Shown here: positions 1,744 through 35,653 of the stretch, piece after piece | Layout: each line of letters begins with the position of its first letter | Numbering within the stretch: the stretch's first letter is position 1 | DNA from: Microbacterium proteolyticum | GTDB lineage: Bacteria > Actinomycetota > Actinomycetes > Actinomycetales > Microbacteriaceae | Reading direction: 5' to 3' | DNA: 64,000 nucleotides | Assembly (NCBI RefSeq): GCF_014192415.1 | Contig: NZ_JACHXY010000001.1 | Coordinates: forward strand, 1,674,001 to 1,738,000 | The notes under the pieces: model-generated | Told to the model about the DNA's origin: nothing | Databases searched by the model: none | The model's input: only the letters and a program-made list of their open reading frames with translations | Position numbers and translations under genes: made by a program

Positions 1744-2561
1744 CGGGTGACCTCCGCGCGTCCCGTGAGGTCTTCGGGGTGCACCGCGGCGAGTTCGTCG
1801 AGGAACGCGACGGCGAACGATCCCGGTCCTCGGGATCCGGATGCCGCCCGCTCCGACGCCACAGCCCACACGGCACTCGCCGCGATCGCCGCCTCGAACG
1901 GCTCGGCCACGGCCGCGAAAGCCGCCATCGCGGCGCCGAGGGCGCAGCCGCCACCGGTGACCTTGGTCAGCAGGGCGCTGCCGCCGGGCACGCGGACCGT
2001 GCGCTCGGCATCCACGATCAGGTCGATCTCACCCGAGACGGCGACCGCACCGCCGGTGCGCGCGGCGAGCGCGCGGGCGGCGTCGAGGGCGTCGTCGGCC
2101 GCGTCGGTGGCGTCGACACCGCGTCCGCCGGCGCCGACTCCCGCCAGGGCGAGGATCTCCGAGGCGTTGCCGCGGATGATCGCGGGGCGTGCCGCGAGCA
2201 GCTCCTGCGCGAGGGCGGTGCGGATGGGGAGGGCGCCGACGGCGACCGGGTCGAGCACCCAGGGAGTGGGCGCGCTGACGGCCTCGCGGGCCGCGTCACG
2301 CTGCTCGGCGGTGGGGGTGCCGAGATTGACGAGCACGCCGCCGGCGATGCCCGCGAACATGCCCGCTTCGCCCGGGATGTCGCACATCGCGGGGGCGGCG
2401 CCGAGTGCGAGCAGGGCGTTGGCGGTGAAGTTCGTCACCACGGCGTTGGTGATGCACTGTGTGAGCGGTGACGCCGCGCGCAGGCGTGCGAGCGCCCCGG
2501 CGGGGTCGGCTTCCCCCGCGGGTGTGGAGGTGGACGGAGACGACGACGTGCGAACGACCAT
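1740..2561 (-). CDS. thiM: Hydroxyethylthiazole kinase
   Basis: Phosphorylates hydroxyethylthiazole, salvaging the thiazole half of thiamine. Family motifs seen: [17 protein letters not shown] near the N-terminus (substrate pocket), VLDPVAVGA mid-protein, IIRGNASEI, and the catalytic TGGGCALGA loop with its Cys. Two in-frame ATGs exist. I chose 2561 because a GAAGGG Shine-Dalgarno lies 9 nt upstream, while the ATG at 2570 directly abuts that same sequence; this gives 273 residues. A Ser/Thr-rich N-terminal extension of about 20 residues precedes the conserved core. First gene of the operon, immediately behind a TPP riboswitch; the operon has kinases and ThiE but no thiC or thiG in view, so it looks like a salvage unit here. 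Confidence 0.94.
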
Positions 2562-2567
2562 TCGCGA

Positions 2568-2645
2568 CATCCCTTCGCTAGTACGAGCTAGATCAGGTTC
2601 AACGGGTGTGTTCTCAGCCCCTTGCGGGCACCCCGTGTCACTGCC
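2568..2645 (-). promoter_or_regulatory. TPP riboswitch (THI element) of thiM-thiE-thiD
   Basis: On the minus strand the segment contains the conserved TPP aptamer pieces: GGGGTGCCC then GGGGCTGAGA, followed by CCCGTTGAACCTGATCTAG and a closing AGCGAAGGG. The CTGAGA and ACCTGATC blocks bind the pyrimidine and pyrophosphate of TPP respectively (established for the family). The last bases of the aptamer are the Shine-Dalgarno of thiM, so control is probably at translation initiation. I see no U-tract terminator, which agrees with this. Confidence 0.93.
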
Positions 2646-5409: not shown

Positions 5410-5415
5410 CGTGAC

Positions 5416-5508
5416 GTCAACCACGGGAGTCCGGTGAGCCGGGCTGAGAGGAAGCGATCCACGCTTCGACCGTCGAACCTGATCCGGATCATGCCGGCGC
5501 AGGGAGGA
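5416..5508 (+). promoter_or_regulatory. TPP riboswitch (THI element) of ykoEDC
   Basis: Aptamer blocks in order: CACGGGAGTCCGG, GGGCTGAGAGG, then after a short variable hairpin (GAAGCG...CGCTTC) CCGTCGAACCTGATCCGG and GCCGGCGCAGGGAGG. The CTGAGAGG and ACCTGATC signatures are diagnostic for TPP. The 3' strand of the aptamer contains the AGGGAGGAG ribosome-binding site of ykoE, so TPP should hide the start site. Second TPP riboswitch in the window. Confidence 0.93.
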
Positions 5509-5515
5509 GCAGAAA

Positions 5516-6148
5516 ATGCACACGACCACGTCTGCCCGCACGGCCCCGGCCGTCGCCACCGTCGACCGCTTCCGGTGGCGGGTCGTCGACATCGTCGTCG
5601 CTGCGGTCCTGGGTGTCGCGATCGGCCTGGTCTTCTGGGGCTGGAACACCGTCGGCGGCCTGTGGTTCGTCGCGATGGACGGTCTGACCCCCGGCCTCGG
5701 CGGCCTCGCGGTCGGCATCTGGCTGATCGGCGGCGTCATCGGCGGACTCGTCATCCGAAAGCCCGGCGCGGCGCTGCTCGTCGAGCTGATCGCGGCCATC
5801 GTCTCGGCCCTGATCGGCAACGTCTGGGGCGTCACGACGATCTTCTCCGGCCTCGCGCAGGGCCTCGGCGCCGAGCTGATCTTCCTGGCCTTCCTCTACG
5901 TGCGCTTCACGCTGCCCGTCGCGATGCTCGCGGGCGCCGGCGCCGGGATCGGGGCGTGGGTGCTCGAGCTGTTCCTGTCGGCGAACATCGCCAAGACCGT
6001 GGAGTTCAACCTCATCTACCTCGGCTCCCTCATCGTCTCGGGTGCCCTGCTCGCGGGCCTCGTCGGCTGGCTGCTGGTGCGCGCGCTCGCCGCCACCGGA
6101 GCGCTCAGCCGCTTCGCCGTCGGTCGGGACGCACGCCGCGACGTCTGA
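5516..6148 (+). CDS. ykoE: ECF transporter S component YkoE (thiamine precursor uptake)
   Basis: Integral membrane substrate-binding component, 210 residues with about six hydrophobic helices, matching the YkoE family that imports hydroxymethylpyrimidine or thiamine with YkoD and YkoC. The stretch VFWGWNTVGGLWF near residue 40 and ELIAAIVSALIGNVWG near 92 fit the family. Strong ribosome-binding site (AGGGAGGAG) 7 bases upstream is part of the riboswitch. The stop TGA shares one base with the ATG of ykoD. Substrate assignment follows from the family plus the TPP riboswitch. Confidence 0.93.
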   Translation: MHTTTSARTAPAVATVDRFRWRVVDIVVAAVLGVAIGLVFWGWNTVGGLWFVAMDGLTPGLGGLAVGIWLIGGVIGGLVIRKPGAALLVELIAAIVSALIGNVWGVTTIFSGLAQGLGAELIFLAFLYVRFTLPVAMLAGAGAGIGAWVLELFLSANIAKTVEFNLIYLGSLIVSGALLAGLVGWLLVRALAATGALSRFAVGRDARRDV

Positions 6149-27607: not shown

Positions 27608-27681
27608 GGGATGCATCCTAGAGTGCGGCGCCGTGCCGTCGGCGGGCACCCGGGCGGCCGTCCCGCTGCGGGGAGCCGCAG

Positions 27682-27853
27682 GTATCGGGTCGGCGGCCGT
27701 GCTCGGACACAACGCAGGAGTTTCGGGGATCCGCACGTATCGGGTCGGCGGCCGTGCTCGGACACAACGCAGGAGTTTCGGGTATCCGAGGGTGGGCCGG
27801 CCCGAAACGCCGCGGTCCGGTGCCGCCTCGCATGCGAATCTCCTGCGTTGTGT
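27682..27853. repeat. Palindromic repeat, family C, with a 55-base tandem copy
   Basis: A 55-base segment (TATCGGGTCGGCGGCCGTGC plus GGACACAACGCAGGAGTTTC) is repeated in tandem from 27682 and 27737. ACACAACGCAGGAG at 27707 and 27762 faces the inverse CTCCTGCGTTGTGT at 27840-27853, 92 bases from end to end for the inner pair. Sits between divergent bglG and rlmN, so it may affect both promoters. Confidence 0.83.
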
Positions 27854-27905
27854 ACGCGTGACCGCGCCCAGCCGCGGCGCAGGCGCGCCCCGGTACCCTG
27901 GAAAC

Positions 27906-29329: not shown

Positions 29330-30958
29330 TCAGGCCGCGACGGCGGTCACGACGAGGTTGTCGACGTAGTGACCGGTTGCCGGGTCCCACGCTCCCGCGC
29401 ACGTGACGATGCGCAGCTCGGGGGTGGGGACGGGGGCATAGATGGATGCCGTCGGGAACGTGTCCTTCTCGACCGTCTGCAGCCCCGTGACGACGAAGTC
29501 CGCCGTGGTGCCGTCGCTGCGCCGGACCGACACGGTGTCGCCCGGGGCCAACTTCGGCAGATCGAAGAACACCGCCGGTCCGGTGGGGGAGTCCACGTGC
29601 GCGGCGATGACCGCGGGGCCGACCTCGCCGGGGAGCACGCCCCGTTCGTACCAGCCGACCGCGTCGAAGTCGGTGGGGGCCTCGATCCAGCCGTCCGCCC
29701 CGCGGTCCAGGCCGATGAGGTCCGACTCGACGCCGATGGCGGGGATGGAGAGGTGGACGGGCGTCGCGGTCGACGCCGAGGGGGCGGCGACGGGGTCCTG
29801 GAAGCCCGAGGCGGCGCTGGACGTGCCCGCCGCCGCGTCCGCGGCCCCCGCCGGCGCGGCCGATGCCGACTCGCCGAGCGGAGGACACCCGGCGAGCACG
29901 TCATCGCTCAGCATCGCCGTGGCCAGAGCGTTCCACGCGTCGCCGTAGTACGTCGGCGTGGTCGACGAGGTCTCGGACATCCGCTGGAGGTCGGCGGCAG
30001 CGGCATCCATCCGTCCGTCGCCGGCGTAGGCGGCCGCGCGGCCCGCGTACGCGACCGCGTGCTGGTCACCCGTGACCGCCCCCGCCCCCGTGTCGAGCTC
30101 GGCCGCCAGCGTGTCGTCCGCGGGGAGTGCCGTGGCGATGCGGCCCGCGAGGGCCCGGTCGGCCGCGTCGCACGATTCGGCGAGACGGATCGGGGTGCGC
30201 GTCGCGTCGTAGCCGTACCCGGGCTCGCCCTGTCCGTCGGCGGCGCCGGCGATCGCGACGGTCCCGTCGGTGGCGACCGTGGCCCAGTCGGTGGGCAGCG
30301 GGTTCGCATCGAGAAGGGCCGAAGTCACCGATCGGCTGCCCTCGGCCAGCTCCTCCCACCGCGGATCATCCGAGGCCTCGGACAGCACCGCATAGGCCGC
30401 CGGGGACGCGTACGAGGGGTTGTAGGCGTGCGGTGCGGACGTCGCCCACGGACCGGGAAGAAGGATCCGTCCGAGGGCGGTCTCGGCCGTCATCTCGTCG
30501 AGCAGTGCCGCGCCGAGCGCGATGCCTTCGGCGCGCAGATCATCGCGGTCGAACCGGTCCGCGGCGAGCACAAGGGCGCGGGCGGCATCCAGGTCCGCAT
30601 CGGAGGCGGGCTCGTCGTCGACGACCGCGCCGTCCACCCACCGCCACGACAGCAGCAGGTCATCGCGCTGCAGGTTCTCGGTGGTCCACGACCAGATCCT
30701 GTCGAACTGGCCCTCATCGCCGGCCGCCACGGCGAGGAGGAGGCCGTAGGCCTGCCCCTCGCTCACGGTGTCGCCACCCTGGTCGGTTCGCACGACGCGT
30801 CCGTCATCGACATAGGTCGACAGGAACGCGGATGCCGTCTCGACGGTCCGGTCGTTCCCCCCGCGGTCCGGCTCGGCCGGTCCGGCGCAGGAGGTCAGGG
30901 TCAGCGCGACGGCGACGGCCGACGCGCCGGCCGCGAGGATCGTGCGGACGCTCGTCAC
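29330..30958 (-). CDS. Lipoprotein fusion: GH8 endoglucanase-like domain + class F sortase domain
   Basis: 542 residues in one unbroken frame. A lipoprotein signal with lipobox LTSC (Cys24) puts it outside the membrane. Residues about 38-355 resemble GH8/BcsZ: TVSEGQAYGLLLAVAAGD (candidate acid Glu67), WSWTTENL, DLLLSWRW, ASDADLDAARAL (Asp120, candidate base) and YNPSYASP. An Ala/Ser linker (362-398) leads to a class F sortase domain (400-542): IPAIGVESDLIGLD, WYERGVLPGEVGPAVIAAHVD with His454, LRIVTCAGAWD with Cys520, and a closing YVDNLVV. No Arg follows Cys520, so the third catalytic residue is unclear. GTG start overlaps the stop of the DUF4397 gene (GTGA). Last gene of the glycan cluster; likely trims a beta-glucan-like polymer and handles a sortase substrate (inference). 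Confidence 0.88.
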   Translation of the reverse strand: MTSVRTILAAGASAVAVALTLTSCAGPAEPDRGGNDRTVETASAFLSTYVDDGRVVRTDQGGDTVSEGQAYGLLLAVAAGDEGQFDRIWSWTTENLQRDDLLLSWRWVDGAVVDDEPASDADLDAARALVLAADRFDRDDLRAEGIALGAALLDEMTAETALGRILLPGPWATSAPHAYNPSYASPAAYAVLSEASDDPRWEELAEGSRSVTSALLDANPLPTDWATVATDGTVAIAGAADGQGEPGYGYDATRTPIRLAESCDAADRALAGRIATALPADDTLAAELDTGAGAVTGDQHAVAYAGRAAAYAGDGRMDAAAADLQRMSETSSTTPTYYGDAWNALATAMLSDDVLAGCPPLGESASAAPAGAADAAAGTSSAASGFQDPVAAPSASTATPVHLSIPAIGVESDLIGLDRGADGWIEAPTDFDAVGWYERGVLPGEVGPAVIAAHVDSPTGPAVFFDLPKLAPGDTVSVRRSDGTTADFVVTGLQTVEKDTFPTASIYAPVPTPELRIVTCAGAWDPATGHYVDNLVVTAVAA

Positions 30959-31857
30959 GCGGTGCCCCGGGCCGTGCGACGGCGCACGACGACGAACGCC
31001 GCGACGAGGCCGCTGAGCACGGCGGCCGCACCGGCGAGCACGCCCGCGGTGTCCGATGAGGACGCAGCCGTCCCCCCGCCGCCGGTGTGGATGCCGCCGA
31101 TGGGCATGTCCGCGAGGGTGGCGGAGTCGGTGACGGCGCGGGCGGTCAGCGACCCGGCGGCGTCATCGAGCACGAACAGGGTCGAGACCGACCCGGCGGG
31201 CAGGTCGACGGCCGAGGATGCCATGGCATCCGCCCCGGTCAGCTCCAGGTCCCACGATCCTGCCGAGACGGAGGCGTAGTCGGTCGCGGTCCCGGTGGCG
31301 ACGCCCCGGGCGATCGCGCGGCCCGCCGTCGTGTCCACGTCGACCGTCGGCTCGGTGGTGGACGCCTGGACCACCCGCACGCGGGCCTGTCCCTCGGCGG
31401 GGGCGGTGAGGTCGTCCGCGAACACCGTCGTCGTCAGCTCGGCGTTCCGGCCGTAGGCGGCGACCGTGACGGGCGCGCCCTGCGAGACATCGACGGACTG
31501 CTGCACGACGGGCTCGGCGTCGTCGGCGGCGTCGGAGGGGACCATCGACACGACGTAGGTGCCCTCGGCGAGCGGGATGTAGTCACTGACGGCGCCGTAG
31601 GCCACGTCGTCGAGCTCGTAGACGACGGCGCCGCCGGCCAGGGCCGTCATCTGCACATCGACCGACTTCGTGTCGGGCGAGAGATGGGCCACGCGGGCCC
31701 ATCCGCCGGGTTCGGCCGGCGCCGCCGCGTTGGCCGCGGGCGCGATGCCCAGGCCGAGCGCCAACGGGGCCATGGCCGCGGCCGTCAGAGCGAGGCCGCG
31801 CAGGCCCCTCCGGGGTGTGCGGATCGAGGGGCGGGGAGTGTCGGTCATGCGGGTCAT
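30955..31857 (-). CDS. DUF4397 surface protein with sortase-like tail
   Basis: 300 residues. Cleavable signal peptide (positive RTPRRGLRGL, hydrophobic stretch, ending near APAANA at 44). Residues 52-240 contain the DUF4397 repeats: WARVAHLSPDTKSVDV, YIPLAEGTYVVSMVPS, and a second round ARVRVVQASTTEPTVDV, YASVSAGSWDLEL. The tail MPIGGIHTGGGG (251-262), a hydrophobic helix (271-291) and RRRTAR form a cell-wall sorting-like signal. ATG 31857 with AGGA six bases upstream. It overlaps the GH8-sortase gene by 4 bases, suggesting the sortase domain acts on this protein. Function of DUF4397 itself is not known to me. Confidence 0.85.
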   Translation of the reverse strand: MTRMTDTPRPSIRTPRRGLRGLALTAAAMAPLALGLGIAPAANAAAPAEPGGWARVAHLSPDTKSVDVQMTALAGGAVVYELDDVAYGAVSDYIPLAEGTYVVSMVPSDAADDAEPVVQQSVDVSQGAPVTVAAYGRNAELTTTVFADDLTAPAEGQARVRVVQASTTEPTVDVDTTAGRAIARGVATGTATDYASVSAGSWDLELTGADAMASSAVDLPAGSVSTLFVLDDAAGSLTARAVTDSATLADMPIGGIHTGGGGTAASSSDTAGVLAGAAAVLSGLVAAFVVVRRRTARGTA

Positions 31858-31919
31858 GAGGGATCCTTTCGTCGGGCGGTGCGGATCAGGAAGGGAAGGG
31901 GGAACACATCGTCGGACGA

Positions 31920-33899
31920 TCACGTCGTCGGACGCGGCAGGAGGTCGGTCGGCTCATCGGGGGAGAACGTGACGACGACGCCGGAGTCCCCGCGCTCGAC
32001 CGAGACCGGACGCAACGGGCCCGCGAGCGAGGAGTAGAACCGCACGACCTCATCCGATCCCGGGGCGTCACCGCGCACGTCCTGGCCCGCGAACGAGCTC
32101 ACGACGAGCTGCCGGTGCACACCCGAGGGATCGCCTTCGAGCTGCGTGATGTCGGCGACGTCGATGCGACCGGTCGACGACAGCTGGCCCAGCGTGACCA
32201 GGATGCGGCCGTCCACGATGCCGGAGGTGAGCAGGTCCTGCTCCGCGCCGGGAACGCCGACGTCGGGGTTCCGCAGCAGCTGCTGGCCGGCGACCGAGCG
32301 GGCGGTGTACAGCCCGCCGTCGGAGGCCTGGGCGAGCGCCGCCTGATCGCGATCGACGAGTCGCACATCGACCTGCTGGGCGCCCTCGCCGAACGAGGCC
32401 ACCACCGCGCTGTTCTCGATGGCCTGTCGGACGGTCGGGAACTCGGTGGGGAACGTGCGCATCGAGTCGGTCGTGATGACGTAGTCGTAGTCCCGCCAGC
32501 CGTCGGGAGCGAGCTCCTGCACATCGGAGTCGGTGTCGGCCTTGTAGTACCAGACCACGTTCTCTCGGCCGAAGCCGGCGTCGACGAGGTCGACCCACAT
32601 CGCATCGTCGACCAGCATGCGCGCGTCTCCCGGCGCATTCTGGGTCATCCACGCCTCGGCGTCGCGGAGCGGGCGGTCCAGGTCGGCGAGGAGGAAGCCG
32701 CGCAGCTGCGCGGCCCACAGCGGACCCGCCGACACCAGGGCGACGAGGAGCCCGGATGCCAGGGCGACACCGCCGAAGCGGCGCAGCGTCGCACGTGAGC
32801 GCAACGATTCGACGGCGAGCTGTCCCATGCCGGCGACGACGATCGCCGCGAACGGAAGAAGCAGGATGACGTAGGGCACCGGCAGGTAGCCGCCGCGGAA
32901 CATGAACGCCGTCAGCGCCAGCAGGGTGATCGCCCACGGGCGCAGGCGCCGCACCCACAATGAGGCCACGGCCGCGGCCAGAGCGGTCATGATGAGTACG
33001 GCGTCGAGCTGCCACCACAGACCGACCGTCCGCGACATGAGGCTCTCGGGGTCGAGGATCGAGCCGCTGCCCTCTCGAGACGACAGCTGGAAGGCGAGAC
33101 CGTCCCACAGGCTCACCCGACCGGGGGCGGGGGCGACCTCGCCCTTGACCAGAGCGAACGCCACGTACGTCAAGCCGATCAGACCGAGCACCGACGCCGA
33201 GACCGGCAGGGTGTATCGACGGGTCGTGCGATCGGCGCCGCGCCACATGAGCCACGCCACCAGCGGAAGCGCCAGCAGGTAGGTCTCCTTCGTCAGAACG
33301 GCCACACCGAAGGCCGCCGCCGCGCCGATGTAGCCGATCAGCTGAGCACGCCGGCTCATCGCCAGCAGCAGTGCGGCCAGCAGCCACGCGGTCGCGATGT
33401 TGTCGAGATACACCTGACGGTGGAACTGCACCGCCAGGGGCGACAGCAGGAAGATCGCCACGCCGACGGAGGCCGTCAGTCGGGCGAAACCGATGCGTCG
33501 CGCGAGGTACCACAGCAGCACGGCCGCGATGGCCGTCGCCACCAGCACCGCTTCCCGAGCGGCGATCACGGCGATGTCGTACCGGTCCCACGCGCCGGTG
33601 AGCCCGGCCCACGCCGCGATCTGCATCCATCCGAGGGGCGGGTGGTCGTACCAGTACGTGTAGTGCGTCAGCTCGCCGAGATTGCTGAGGCTCCACGCCT
33701 GGGCGGTGTACGTGCCCTCGTCGTCGATGCGCTGGGGCGAGCCGCCCAGATTGACGGCATTGACGAGAATGCCGATCAGCAGCGGCGGGAGGAGCCACGC
33801 GGCATCGATGAGACGGCGGCGCCATCGCGGGCTCCGGGTCTCGAAGACACGCTCTGCGTGATGGGGGGCGGGGGACGGGCGGTCGAGGGTGGAGGTCAT
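31920..33899 (-). CDS. GT39-type membrane glycosyltransferase (ArnT/PMT-like)
   Basis: 659 residues, polyprenyl-phosphate-sugar-dependent GT-C fold. RIDDEGTYTAQAWS near residue 56 supplies the acidic pair in the first extracytoplasmic loop; YDHPPLGWMQ near 83 and HRQVYLDNIATAWLL follow as in ArnT/GT39 proteins. About 11 helices occupy residues 35-425; a soluble extracytoplasmic domain of about 230 residues ends the chain. Likely adds a sugar to a surface protein or glycan outside the membrane. ATG at 33899 overlaps the GT2 stop; the DUF4397 gene begins 62 bases after its end. Acceptor and sugar unknown. Confidence 0.88.
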   Translation of the reverse strand: MTSTLDRPSPAPHHAERVFETRSPRWRRRLIDAAWLLPPLLIGILVNAVNLGGSPQRIDDEGTYTAQAWSLSNLGELTHYTYWYDHPPLGWMQIAAWAGLTGAWDRYDIAVIAAREAVLVATAIAAVLLWYLARRIGFARLTASVGVAIFLLSPLAVQFHRQVYLDNIATAWLLAALLLAMSRRAQLIGYIGAAAAFGVAVLTKETYLLALPLVAWLMWRGADRTTRRYTLPVSASVLGLIGLTYVAFALVKGEVAPAPGRVSLWDGLAFQLSSREGSGSILDPESLMSRTVGLWWQLDAVLIMTALAAAVASLWVRRLRPWAITLLALTAFMFRGGYLPVPYVILLLPFAAIVVAGMGQLAVESLRSRATLRRFGGVALASGLLVALVSAGPLWAAQLRGFLLADLDRPLRDAEAWMTQNAPGDARMLVDDAMWVDLVDAGFGRENVVWYYKADTDSDVQELAPDGWRDYDYVITTDSMRTFPTEFPTVRQAIENSAVVASFGEGAQQVDVRLVDRDQAALAQASDGGLYTARSVAGQQLLRNPDVGVPGAEQDLLTSGIVDGRILVTLGQLSSTGRIDVADITQLEGDPSGVHRQLVVSSFAGQDVRGDAPGSDEVVRFYSSLAGPLRPVSVERGDSGVVVTFSPDEPTDLLPRPTT

Positions 33900-35374
33900 C
33901 CGGCCACCCCCACCGTCGTGGTCGCGAGTTCGGGGGTCGTGGCCGGGGTCGCAGCGGCATCCCGATGGGCGCCCGTGTGTTCGGTCTTCTCCCAGCTTCC
34001 GTCGCCCTTGAGCTGCCGCACGACCGCCCGCACGGCCGCGGCCGCGAGGAACACCTGGTAGGGGACGAGTCCGAGGACGAGACGGACGTAGTCGCGCACG
34101 CGCACCTTCTTGTCATAGACGCGTCCGAACTCCGTCAGCCCCGCCGCCTCGGCGACGAGGGTGATCACGGTCGGCACCAGGGGGAGGAACGTGATGAGGG
34201 CGACGGGCGTCGGCACCTTGACCAGCAGGATGAACGCGAGCGAGATGGGGATCAGCAGTCCGGTCGCCGCCTGAAGGAAGGGCATGTTCAGCAAGTAGCG
34301 GGCGTACATGCGCTGGCGGAGGGTCGGGAGAGCTTTCCACTCCCCCTTGCCGAGCACCTGTAGGAAACCCTGATTCCAGCGAGTCCGCTGCTTGTAGAGC
34401 GACGTGAGCGTGGGCGGGGTCTCTTCGCGCGTGACGTACTCGGGGTTGTAGGCGACGACGACCTTCGCGCCGTCGCTCGACAGGCGCACCCCCAGCTCGC
34501 AGTCCTCGGCGAGGCACTGGTCGTCCCAACCGGCCGACCACGTCAGGCGCTCGCGGGTGACGAACACGGTGTTCCCACCGAGGGGGATGAACTTCGACCG
34601 GGCGTGGAAGTGCAGGCGCGAGCGGAACCAGAAGTAGTACTCGAGCACGTTGCGCAGCGACCACCAGCTCGTTTCGAAGTTCATCAACTGCACGCCACCC
34701 TGAACCACATCGGCGTCGGTCTCCTGGAACTTGGAGTCGACCACGGTGAGGAGTCCGGGGTGCACCTCGTCTTCGGCGTCGAACACGCCGACGACGTCGC
34801 CGGTGGCGATCTGCAGAGCACGGTTGAGTGCCTTGGGCTTGTTCTTGGGGACGCTGTCGTCGACGACGACCTTGATGAGGTCGGGATGCCGCGCCGCCGC
34901 CTGACGGACCACGAGCTCGGTGCCCGGGTCGTCGTGCCCGACGATCGCGATGATCTCGAAATCGGGGTGGTCCTGCTGAGCGAGGCGGTCGAGGGTCTGA
35001 CCCATGACCTCCTCCTCGTGCCGACCGGGGACGAGGAGGGTGAAGCGGTGCCGAGCGGGGCGCGGGGACGAACTGAACTGCGTGGCCCGCAGGTCGTCGG
35101 CGGAACGCCACGCGTGCAGCATCCACCACAGCGTCGTCGTCGCGACGACGGTCAGGACCAGCGCGAGCACGATGATGCCGCTGTAGCCGAGCCATTCTCC
35201 GATCGACCAGTCGGGAAGGAACCCGCCGGTGGTGGAGGTGCCGGGTTGGGCAGGGATGACGGTGTCGCTGATACCGGTAGAGCCCTGCCCGGGGGCGGGG
35301 GCGACCGGGGTCAGGAGGGGTTCGGGGGTCGGATCGGGGGCGGTCTGCGCGAGGGGGGCGTAAGGGAACGACAA
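33896..35374 (-). CDS. GT2 processive glycosyltransferase (cellulose/beta-glycan synthase-like)
   Basis: 492 residues if the TTG at 35374 is the start, chosen because a GGAGG stands five bases before it; the frame is open further up but without other good starts. Pro-rich leader, TM helix 63-87, then the GT-A domain: LVPGRHEEE near 114, PKNKPKALN near 176, DAEDEV (199-204, the DxD site), AEDCELG (289-295, catalytic base) and QRTRWNQG (329-336), the Q/RxxRW motif of processive synthases. Three to four helices follow (360-440). Resembles BcsA catalytic cores but lacks a PilZ domain. First gene of the cluster GT2-GT39-DUF4397-GH8/sortase. Confidence 0.88.
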   Translation of the reverse strand: MSFPYAPLAQTAPDPTPEPLLTPVAPAPGQGSTGISDTVIPAQPGTSTTGGFLPDWSIGEWLGYSGIIVLALVLTVVATTTLWWMLHAWRSADDLRATQFSSSPRPARHRFTLLVPGRHEEEVMGQTLDRLAQQDHPDFEIIAIVGHDDPGTELVVRQAAARHPDLIKVVVDDSVPKNKPKALNRALQIATGDVVGVFDAEDEVHPGLLTVVDSKFQETDADVVQGGVQLMNFETSWWSLRNVLEYYFWFRSRLHFHARSKFIPLGGNTVFVTRERLTWSAGWDDQCLAEDCELGVRLSSDGAKVVVAYNPEYVTREETPPTLTSLYKQRTRWNQGFLQVLGKGEWKALPTLRQRMYARYLLNMPFLQAATGLLIPISLAFILLVKVPTPVALITFLPLVPTVITLVAEAAGLTEFGRVYDKKVRVRDYVRLVLGLVPYQVFLAAAAVRAVVRQLKGDGSWEKTEHTGAHRDAAATPATTPELATTTVGVAG

Positions 35375-35387
35375 AGGAGCCTCCAGC

Positions 35388-35399
35388 GTCCACGTGGAC
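35388..35399. promoter_or_regulatory. Perfect 12-base palindrome before the GT2 gene
   Basis: GTCCACGTGGAC ends 14 bases upstream of the TTG start, just before the Shine-Dalgarno. Could be an operator or a small leader hairpin. The remaining divergent gap (35400-35653) shows no other clear element. Confidence 0.4.
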
Positions 35400-35653
35400 G
35401 GTTCGAGGGCGGTAAGGGGATGCGACGACGGCCGGGCGACAAACGCCTCGCACGGGTCCTTCGGGGGCGGGTGGGGGGGATGGTTTGGGCGGCACAGACG
35501 ATTGCCAGGTTCGCGTCGACGACCGGGGACCGCCTCACGCGTCGATCGCCCCTCCGCCGGAGTCGGGCCCACCGCCTCGCCCGGGGCCGGGGCGGATGCC
35601 AGTTCCGCCGGTCGGGCGTTCCGGTCGACGCCGCCCACCACCAGACTGAAGGC

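Follow-up and report, generated by a model that had tools for sequence, protein, structure and literature searches.

Why would a single lipoprotein join a glycoside hydrolase family 8 (GH8) endoglucanase-like domain to a class F sortase domain? The question is raised by one gene of Microbacterium proteolyticum (assembly GCF_014192415.1), which lies in a stretch of 64,000 nucleotides (contig NZ_JACHXY010000001.1, positions 1,674,001 to 1,738,000; hereafter, we refer to this whole analyzed stretch as "the window"). We favor, with moderate confidence, the reading that the fusion is a station of an envelope-glucan machine, where trimming of a glycan and anchoring of a wall protein would be tethered on one lipid anchor. 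The architecture, operon, conservation, adjacency and motif correlations described below were observed directly in the sequences. The features of the fusion gene, in coordinates of the window, are as follows:

29330..30958, minus strand: GH8–class F sortase fusion lipoprotein, 542 amino acids, GTG start (domain searches, AlphaFold2, Foldseek).
30887..30898, minus strand: lipobox LTSC, residues 21-24 (sequence).
29936..30814, minus strand: GH8 domain, residues 49-341, with E67 (SEGQ), D120 (ASDAD) and D251 (YDA) (Pfam PF01270 and alignment).
29771..29902, minus strand: Ala/Ser-rich linker, residues 353-396, containing the GFQDP stem (sequence; low predicted local distance difference test score, pLDDT, at 364-394).
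29333..29770, minus strand: class F sortase domain, residues 397-542, with H454, R516 and C520 (NCBIfam NF033748 and alignment).

An initial annotation had described a single frame of 542 residues with an LTSC lipobox, and this frame indeed exists, on the minus strand, with every sequence block that had been listed for it (SEGQAYGLLLA, ASDADLDAA, NPSY, IPAIGV, AAHVD and IVTC). Domain searches bore out the two proposed halves: Pfam PF01270 matched residues 49-341 (E = 1.3e-30, 107 bits, cut-off 24), and the NCBIfam class_F_sortase model NF033748 matched residues 394-540 (1.8e-50, 170.6 bits, cut-off 166), with a match of the sortase half to Pfam Sortase as well (1.4e-19); no further domain, including a carbohydrate-binding module, was found in the chain by Pfam and NCBIfam search. 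An AlphaFold2 model from 34 aligned rows (mean pLDDT 84.9) displayed two folded domains, which Foldseek matched to GH8 glucanases (1wzz, target TM-score TMt 0.78; BcsZ 9b87, 0.78) and to sortases (2w1j, TMt 0.52), respectively. Residues 1-31 and 364-394 fell below a pLDDT of 50, the latter being the disordered stretch that joins the domains. The best solved GH8 relatives are glucanases of Acetobacter/Komagataeibacter, with CelA also among the relatives. A PDB search with the sortase domain as a single sequence gave no match, and a profile search with it gave weak matches, mostly to other sortases.

The acidic residues of the GH8 site and the His and Cys of the sortase site are strictly conserved. 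E67, D120 and D251, aligned to 1wzz, are invariant in 21 of 21 aligned GH8s, and we take these acidic positions (the Glu of SEGQ and the Asp residues of [ST]D.D and YDA) to have the catalytic roles. All 21 aligned sortases share H454, R516 and C520 of the sortase half. R516 lies within LR[LIV][IV]TC, four residues before the Cys, in 58 of 59 sortase stretches, the remaining one being without that region.

The genes next to the fusion tie it to a glycan pathway. It forms part of an operon in the order GT2–GT39-like–DUF4397–fusion, all on the minus strand, in which each junction overlaps by 4 bp:

30955..31923, minus strand: DUF4397 protein, 322 amino acids, two immunoglobulin (Ig)-like domains, probable sortase substrate (PF14344, 1.2e-32; AlphaFold2 mean pLDDT 75.6).
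31081..31098, minus strand: sorting motif GGIHTG in the DUF4397 protein, with a hydrophobic helix and then RRR after it (NCBIfam GVDTG_CTERM).
31920..33899, minus strand: GT39/ArnT-like GT-C membrane protein, 659 amino acids, with DDEGTY and YWYDHPPLGW motifs (Pfam PMT, 20.7 bits; motifs).
33896..35641, minus strand: GT2 synthase, 581 amino acids, with a QRTRW motif, first operon gene (PF13641, 2.5e-40).

We consider the glycan link supported because this GH8 is the sole one found in the window's genome, because its operon contains a GT2 of the processive type (QRTRW), and because the GT2-GT39-GH8 order recurs, having been seen again in other families. Every cassette GT2 counted, the window's among them, has the QRTRW motif (75 of 75); the count sets aside an unrelated 76th GT2 frame, in locus L162. 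The DUF4397 protein exceeds the cut-off of NCBIfam NF058571 (GVDTG_CTERM; 37.1 bits, cut-off 29, residues 273-316) and, judging by adjacency, is probably the substrate of the sortase; the PDB matches of its model were mainly generic Ig-like folds (PepT2 ectodomain, AlgF C-terminal domain). No BcsB or cellulose synthase over cut-off and no exosortase or PEP-CTERM signal was found in the four operon genes (for the GT2, among the matches listed), the exosortase search having been confined to these genes and not extended to the rest of the genome. Promoter and terminator scans yielded nothing exceeding shuffled sequence.

On the favored reading, the GT2 would make and export a beta-linked glucan, and the GT-C protein would draw on a lipid-linked donor to add a sugar on the outer side of the membrane. 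The GH8 half, held by its lipid anchor, may then cut or release the chain, much as BcsZ does at cellulose synthases, and the sortase half would cleave the DUF4397 protein after the T of its TG and transfer it to a wall amine, most likely of peptidoglycan. The single lipid anchor and the flexible linker of the fusion would hold trimming and anchoring at the same synthase. The identity of the polymer, its cutting, the anchoring and the acceptor are the parts of this scheme that we infer.

How widely is the fused architecture kept? In the family set, 18 of 199 genomes had a strong GH8 match (E <= 1.5e-86; this count excludes three weaker matches, in G137, in G072 and the second one in G147, with E of 1e-13 to 1e-10). 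A sortase and DUF4397 were near in all 18, GT2 and GT39 also in 17, and 2 of the 18 were fused. The genus set had GH8 in 20 of 198 genomes, all with DUF4397 and sortase, 14 fused (window's included) and 6 split, and GH8 was found in 7 of the 248 genomes of the order set, where the neighborhood check covered genomes other than G780, G879, G892 and G893. Among the named relatives, i.e., the best 80 of 196 loci, a set that overlaps the family and genus genome sets, 22 were fused, 56 had separate frames (including L188), and 2 (L162, L186) had GH8 without sortase or DUF4397. The fused form occurs in Microbacterium (M. testaceum, M. oleivorans, M. radiodurans, M. enclense and others), Subtercola lobariae, S. 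vilae and a Herbiconiux; the split form occurs in Curtobacterium, Frigoribacterium, Plantibacter, Arthrobacter, Labedella and other Microbacterium. Common to fused and split lineages is a five-part set, hereafter the cassette: GT2, GT39-like protein, DUF4397 protein with a GG[VI]xTG-type signal, GH8 and sortase. Among split loci in the family and genus sets, the distance from the GH8 stop to the start of the sortase core ranged from 176 bp to 2.1 kb (median 230 bp). One open frame across both halves, with five screened catalytic motifs, was present in 23 of 23 cases (the window and the 22 named fused loci).

Two loci deserve separate mention. In a Microbacterium hydrothermale draft (L188), GH8 and sortase lie in different frames among neighbors of the fused type, a possible frameshift. 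In G040, the family genome without GT2 and GT39 near its GH8 (L047:8888-12427), a GH8 without obvious signal peptide is followed by a GT2 that looks, by eye, polyprenol-phosphate-mannose-synthase-like and then by DUF4397 and sortase; the cassette GT2 and GT39 were not found there.

A fusion need not imply a joint function. Two adjacent operon genes could have been joined so that their products share a lipid anchor, each half working as it does in split relatives. Such an uncoupled fusion would fit the predominance of separate frames (56 of the 80 named loci, with the apparently broken frame of L188 among them), and it would fit the junction itself. Judged by eye, the GH8 of split relatives has a hydrophobic segment at its N terminus, and their separate sortase has either a lipobox or a transmembrane segment, mostly with a stem ending in QDP or QNP after this anchor; the fusion linker keeps this QDP stem (GFQDP), as found before the separate sortases of many relatives. 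A simple lipobox pattern was found on the GH8 half in 21 of 23 fused loci, L111 and L134 lacking it. On the favored reading too, the fusion would have arisen by the joining of two neighboring genes, with the sortase losing its own membrane anchor. In a 58-row tree (window, 55 named loci, L039 and L047; left out are L162, L186, L188 and a further 22 named rows that are mostly close relatives), the fused rows all fell to one side of one branch (Shimodaira–Hasegawa-like approximate likelihood ratio test, SH-aLRT, 88), requiring one change between fused and split. This quick, midpoint-rooted tree with its single support value is consistent with a single origin of the fusion but does not prove it.

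Substitution rates bear on the same issue. Across six close fused pairs of the Microbacterium-type clade, nonsynonymous (dN) and synonymous (dS) divergence amounted to 0.06-0.18 and 0.45-1.22 for GH8 (dN/dS ~0.13-0.20) and to 0.016-0.22 and 0.47-1.09 for the sortase (dN/dS ~0.03-0.23), values of dS near or above 1 being close to saturation. With dN low relative to dS in both halves, both look to be under purifying selection. The linker, which is disordered, had the highest dN in all six pairs, in line with a mere join. A seventh pair, with Subtercola L145, is too distant to be useful (dN 0.45-0.51, dS 0.74-1.07). Against an uncoupled fusion stand the retention of the fused form over at least three genera and much sequence divergence and the conservation of both active sites together with low dN/dS in both halves. 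We hold it to be unlikely, but to be reckoned with.

What remains, then, of the coupling between glycan trimming and protein attachment on that glycan, as the initial annotation had proposed it? Its two-domain architecture and its link to a glycan pathway were upheld, while attachment on the glycan itself is a less favored conjecture. Since the two enzymes are separate in split relatives, the fusion is not essential to either activity, and what is left of the coupling idea is that both enzymes sit close together on one anchor.

A wider comparison showed that the glycan genes and the sorting genes can occur apart. In a class-level set of 394 genomes, sortase profile matches were found in 221 genomes, DUF4397 in 32 genomes (34 places) and GH8 in 11. 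DUF4397 was near a sortase in 31 of the 34 places (29 within 2 kb of a listed sortase, with 2 more adjoining by profile in the fetched loci), and 26 of the 32 DUF4397 genomes had no GH8 match at the threshold used. The pair of sortase and substrate therefore needs no glycan genes. Five of the 11 GH8 genomes had full cassettes (G000, G262, G762, G471 and G677), and L205 and L208 were variants: L208 has GT2-GT39-GH8 and no DUF4397 or sortase within the fetched stretch, and L205 has the order GT2, GT39/DUF4397-like chain, GH8, with no sortase in the fetched stretch. The middle chain of L205 (L205:4772-7576) combines a GT39-like part, a DUF4397-like domain and a terminal membrane helix, with a tail that lacks the TG motif. 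As the units occur separately, we distinguish a glycan unit (GT2, GT39, GH8) from a sorting unit (DUF4397, sortase), the fusion being a covalent link between them.

The GT39-like protein follows this division. Its DDEGTY and WYDHPP motifs were intact in every cassette copy extending over them (75 of 75, from 77 frames, of which L126, at 431 amino acids, is under the 500-residue limit and L109 is cut by a contig end), as well as in L202, L203, L205 and L208; L209, seemingly the same contig as L132, was uncounted, and L230-L236 repeat counted genomes. By contrast, they were found in none of nine sorting-only copies without GH8 (L210-L216, L223, L237). In eight of these nine loci, no GT2 or GH8 lay in the ~7-10 kb upstream, and L214 is without GH8 by genome-wide search alone. 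In the loci compared, the motifs are kept with the glycan unit and lost where only the sorting unit is present, which indicates that the GT-C chemistry tracks the glycan unit. The GT39-like protein is still found, whole or in part, beside the sorting unit after motif loss, and we infer that it also scaffolds the DUF4397 protein. Seven more sorting-only loci (L050, L051, L217, L219-L222) are counted outside the nine, having no alignment over the GT39 motifs. In L050 and L051, both Microbacteriaceae without GH8, a large frame before the DUF4397–sortase pair matches only GT39-like residues 428-655, and a gene of L100 looks similar to that frame, by eye only.

The sorting signal itself is well kept in the cassettes. 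All 77 DUF4397 proteins from the named cassettes have the motif [GD][GP][VIT]xTG, and T280 and G281 were invariant in 32 of 32 aligned DUF4397 proteins. In all 21 fused-type tails (21/21), a simple window count places a membrane-like hydrophobic stretch after the motif; Curtobacterium, Frigoribacterium, Plantibacter and split Microbacterium mostly have ~18-33 residues after it. The window's genome encodes two GVDTG-signal proteins over cut-off and has two class F sortase matches; each of the former immediately precedes one of the latter. Six further GVDTG-signal matches fall below cut-off.

Some observations on signals and sortases stand beside these counts. The named Curtobacterium, Frigoribacterium and Plantibacter loci, for instance L155, L152 and L135, have an xTGGG motif and a short tail with no membrane-like stretch, an unusual sortase signal. 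A second pair in the window's genome (L049:8986-10352; G000:C2 ~753985-755351) consists of a 236-residue secreted protein with a PVGGVDTGAGG signal, presumably CHRD-like by eye, whose gene overlaps that of a lipoprotein class F sortase by 4 bp. The sortases that read DNR at the beta8 position (L002, L076, L078 and L079) lie outside the cassette, L002 being the second sortase of the window's genome; cassette sortases read DNL, DNV or similar there.

Could the sortase half instead attach the DUF4397 protein to the glucan itself? In such a scheme, the acceptor would be, e.g., an aminosugar placed by the GT-C protein, which we take to resemble ArnT, while the GH8 half would set the chain end. ArnT transfers an aminosugar, and an aminosugar would supply the amine needed by the sortase. 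The intact GT39-like active site, found only where GT2 and GH8 are present among the loci compared, fits this scheme. There is reportedly also a precedent for joining a protein to a sugar by a sortase-like step, in type IX secretion (PMC4560394, PMC7468200, PMC13086638). It is opposed by the DUF4397–sortase pairs in genomes without a GH8 match, where the GT39-like protein lacks the motifs: this sortase type must have another acceptor there, which makes attachment to the glycan possible, not favored. We therefore regard it as improbable. A bolder chain of events strikes us as slightly more doubtful still: the GT2 glucan would receive an amine-bearing sugar from the GT-C protein and be trimmed by the GH8 half, and the sortase half of the same chain would ligate the DUF4397 protein to that very amine. 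If this held, a true sortase would be joining protein covalently to glucan in a Gram-positive envelope, and a single enzyme would determine both how long the chain is and where the ligation takes place.

Several findings weigh against the favored reading of a glucan station with wall anchoring. On the glycan side, the GT2 exceeded no curated cut-off for cellulose, poly-N-acetylglucosamine or other named synthases among the matches listed (TIGR03030 CelA, 23.9 bits, cut-off 699.1; best curated match, XrtP-associated glycosyltransferase, 82.3 bits, cut-off 520), so that the glucan is deduced from the GH8. The GT-C protein, at 20.7 bits, is below the cut-off of Pfam PF02366 (PMT; 22.7) and, with DDEGTY present, is described here as GT39-like only. 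Four of the 11 class-level GH8 genomes had GH8 alone (L201, L204) or with a weak GT2 match (L206, L207), and no GT39 or sorting genes lay near the GH8 in these four. On the sorting side, taking the beta8 Arg of SrtA as our assumed reference for the catalytic Arg, we found it absent in the cassette sortases, fusion included, with DNR in 4 of 59 stretches (L002, L076, L078, L079). Three DUF4397 places (G399:C164, G735, G615) were without a nearby sortase, AG replaced TG in 4 of 20 fetched class-level DUF4397 proteins (by eye), and only 7 of 56 split-type DUF4397 tails had a membrane-like stretch, which is odd for a sortase signal. Last, the split form is commoner than the fused form, which implies that coupling by fusion is not required.

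Comparison with known systems places the fusion between several of them. The BcsZ/CMCax GH8 endoglucanases of cellulose synthase operons share its GH8 fold, its three acidic motifs and an operon with GT2. Unlike BcsZ, the GH8 half is fused to a sortase, scores 115.9 bits (E = 1.9e-33) against the BcsZ model PRK11097, below the cut-off of 299, and has no BcsB and no cellulose synthase match over cut-off among the four genes of its operon; membership in BcsZ or cellulose synthase was rejected, the cut-offs being missed. The DUF4397 protein belongs to the GVDTG sorting domain family (NF058571), from which it differs in that its motif reads GIHTG and that 49 of 56 split-type homologues lack the membrane-like stretch after the motif. 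Exosortases are integral-membrane proteins, whereas the fusion has a true sortase fold with a Cys and a signal of the form GG[VI]xTG; PorU of type IX secretion belongs to a protein family and an envelope unrelated to the sortase system here. Likenesses do exist: in the PEP-CTERM/EpsH exosortase system (PMC1569441), sorting genes reportedly travel with exopolysaccharide genes, as here, where the best curated match of the GT2 is XrtP-associated, and PorU reportedly cleaves a C-terminal signal and transfers the protein to a sugar, which is alike only if the acceptor here is a sugar (PMC4560394, PMC7468200).

Of the class F sortases (NF033748), the fusion is a member above cut-off, in this case as the C-terminal half of a GH8 lipoprotein tied to a glycan operon, unlike other class F sortases. 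One report states that what class F sortases do physiologically is still unknown, describes a quadruple class F sortase deletion in Actinoplanes missouriensis that gave no phenotype, and proposes that neighbors of srtF1 and srtF4 without the usual pentapeptide motifs may be substrates (PMC13251363); the candidate substrate adjoining the fusion likewise lacks the usual pentapeptide. A literature search over titles and the starts of abstracts, with subscription papers mostly outside it, found no description of the fusion or the DUF4397–sortase pair, nor of a surface glucan system of Microbacterium, Curtobacterium, Frigoribacterium, Plantibacter or Arthrobacter.

Another use of a GH8 would be nutritional, i.e., a cellulase on the surface of plant-associated bacteria to which the sortase is unrelated. 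GH8 cellulases do exist, with CelA among the solved relatives. Against this stand the position of the GH8 within a synthase operon with 4-bp overlaps, the want of a carbohydrate-binding module in the Pfam and NCBIfam searches, and the best matches, which are BcsZ among curated models and the Acetobacter/Komagataeibacter glucanases among solved ones; it was rejected on operon context and seems to us very unlikely. An assembly or frameshift artefact, for which the different frames of the two halves in L188 might speak, is ruled out with near certainty by the same open frame over both halves, with all screened motifs, in the window and 22 other named loci.

Elsewhere in the window, a 55-nt tandem repeat (27669-27778) with a 22-nt inverted copy (27835-27856) lies between antiterminator-like and rlmN-like genes, named by eye, and two thiamine pyrophosphate (TPP) riboswitches lie ~3 kb apart, at 2553-2645 (minus strand) and 5413-5522 (plus strand).

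The locus offers a class F sortase joined to a glycan enzyme, with an adjacent non-LPXTG candidate substrate, in an operon small enough that function could be tested by single-gene deletions. Among the loci compared, the GT39 active-site pattern tells a glycan module and a sorting module apart and yields a prediction for the task of each. For the bacteria concerned (Microbacterium, Curtobacterium, Frigoribacterium, Plantibacter and Arthrobacter), these findings point to a surface glucan system, and they suggest a testable role for a poorly understood class of sortases.

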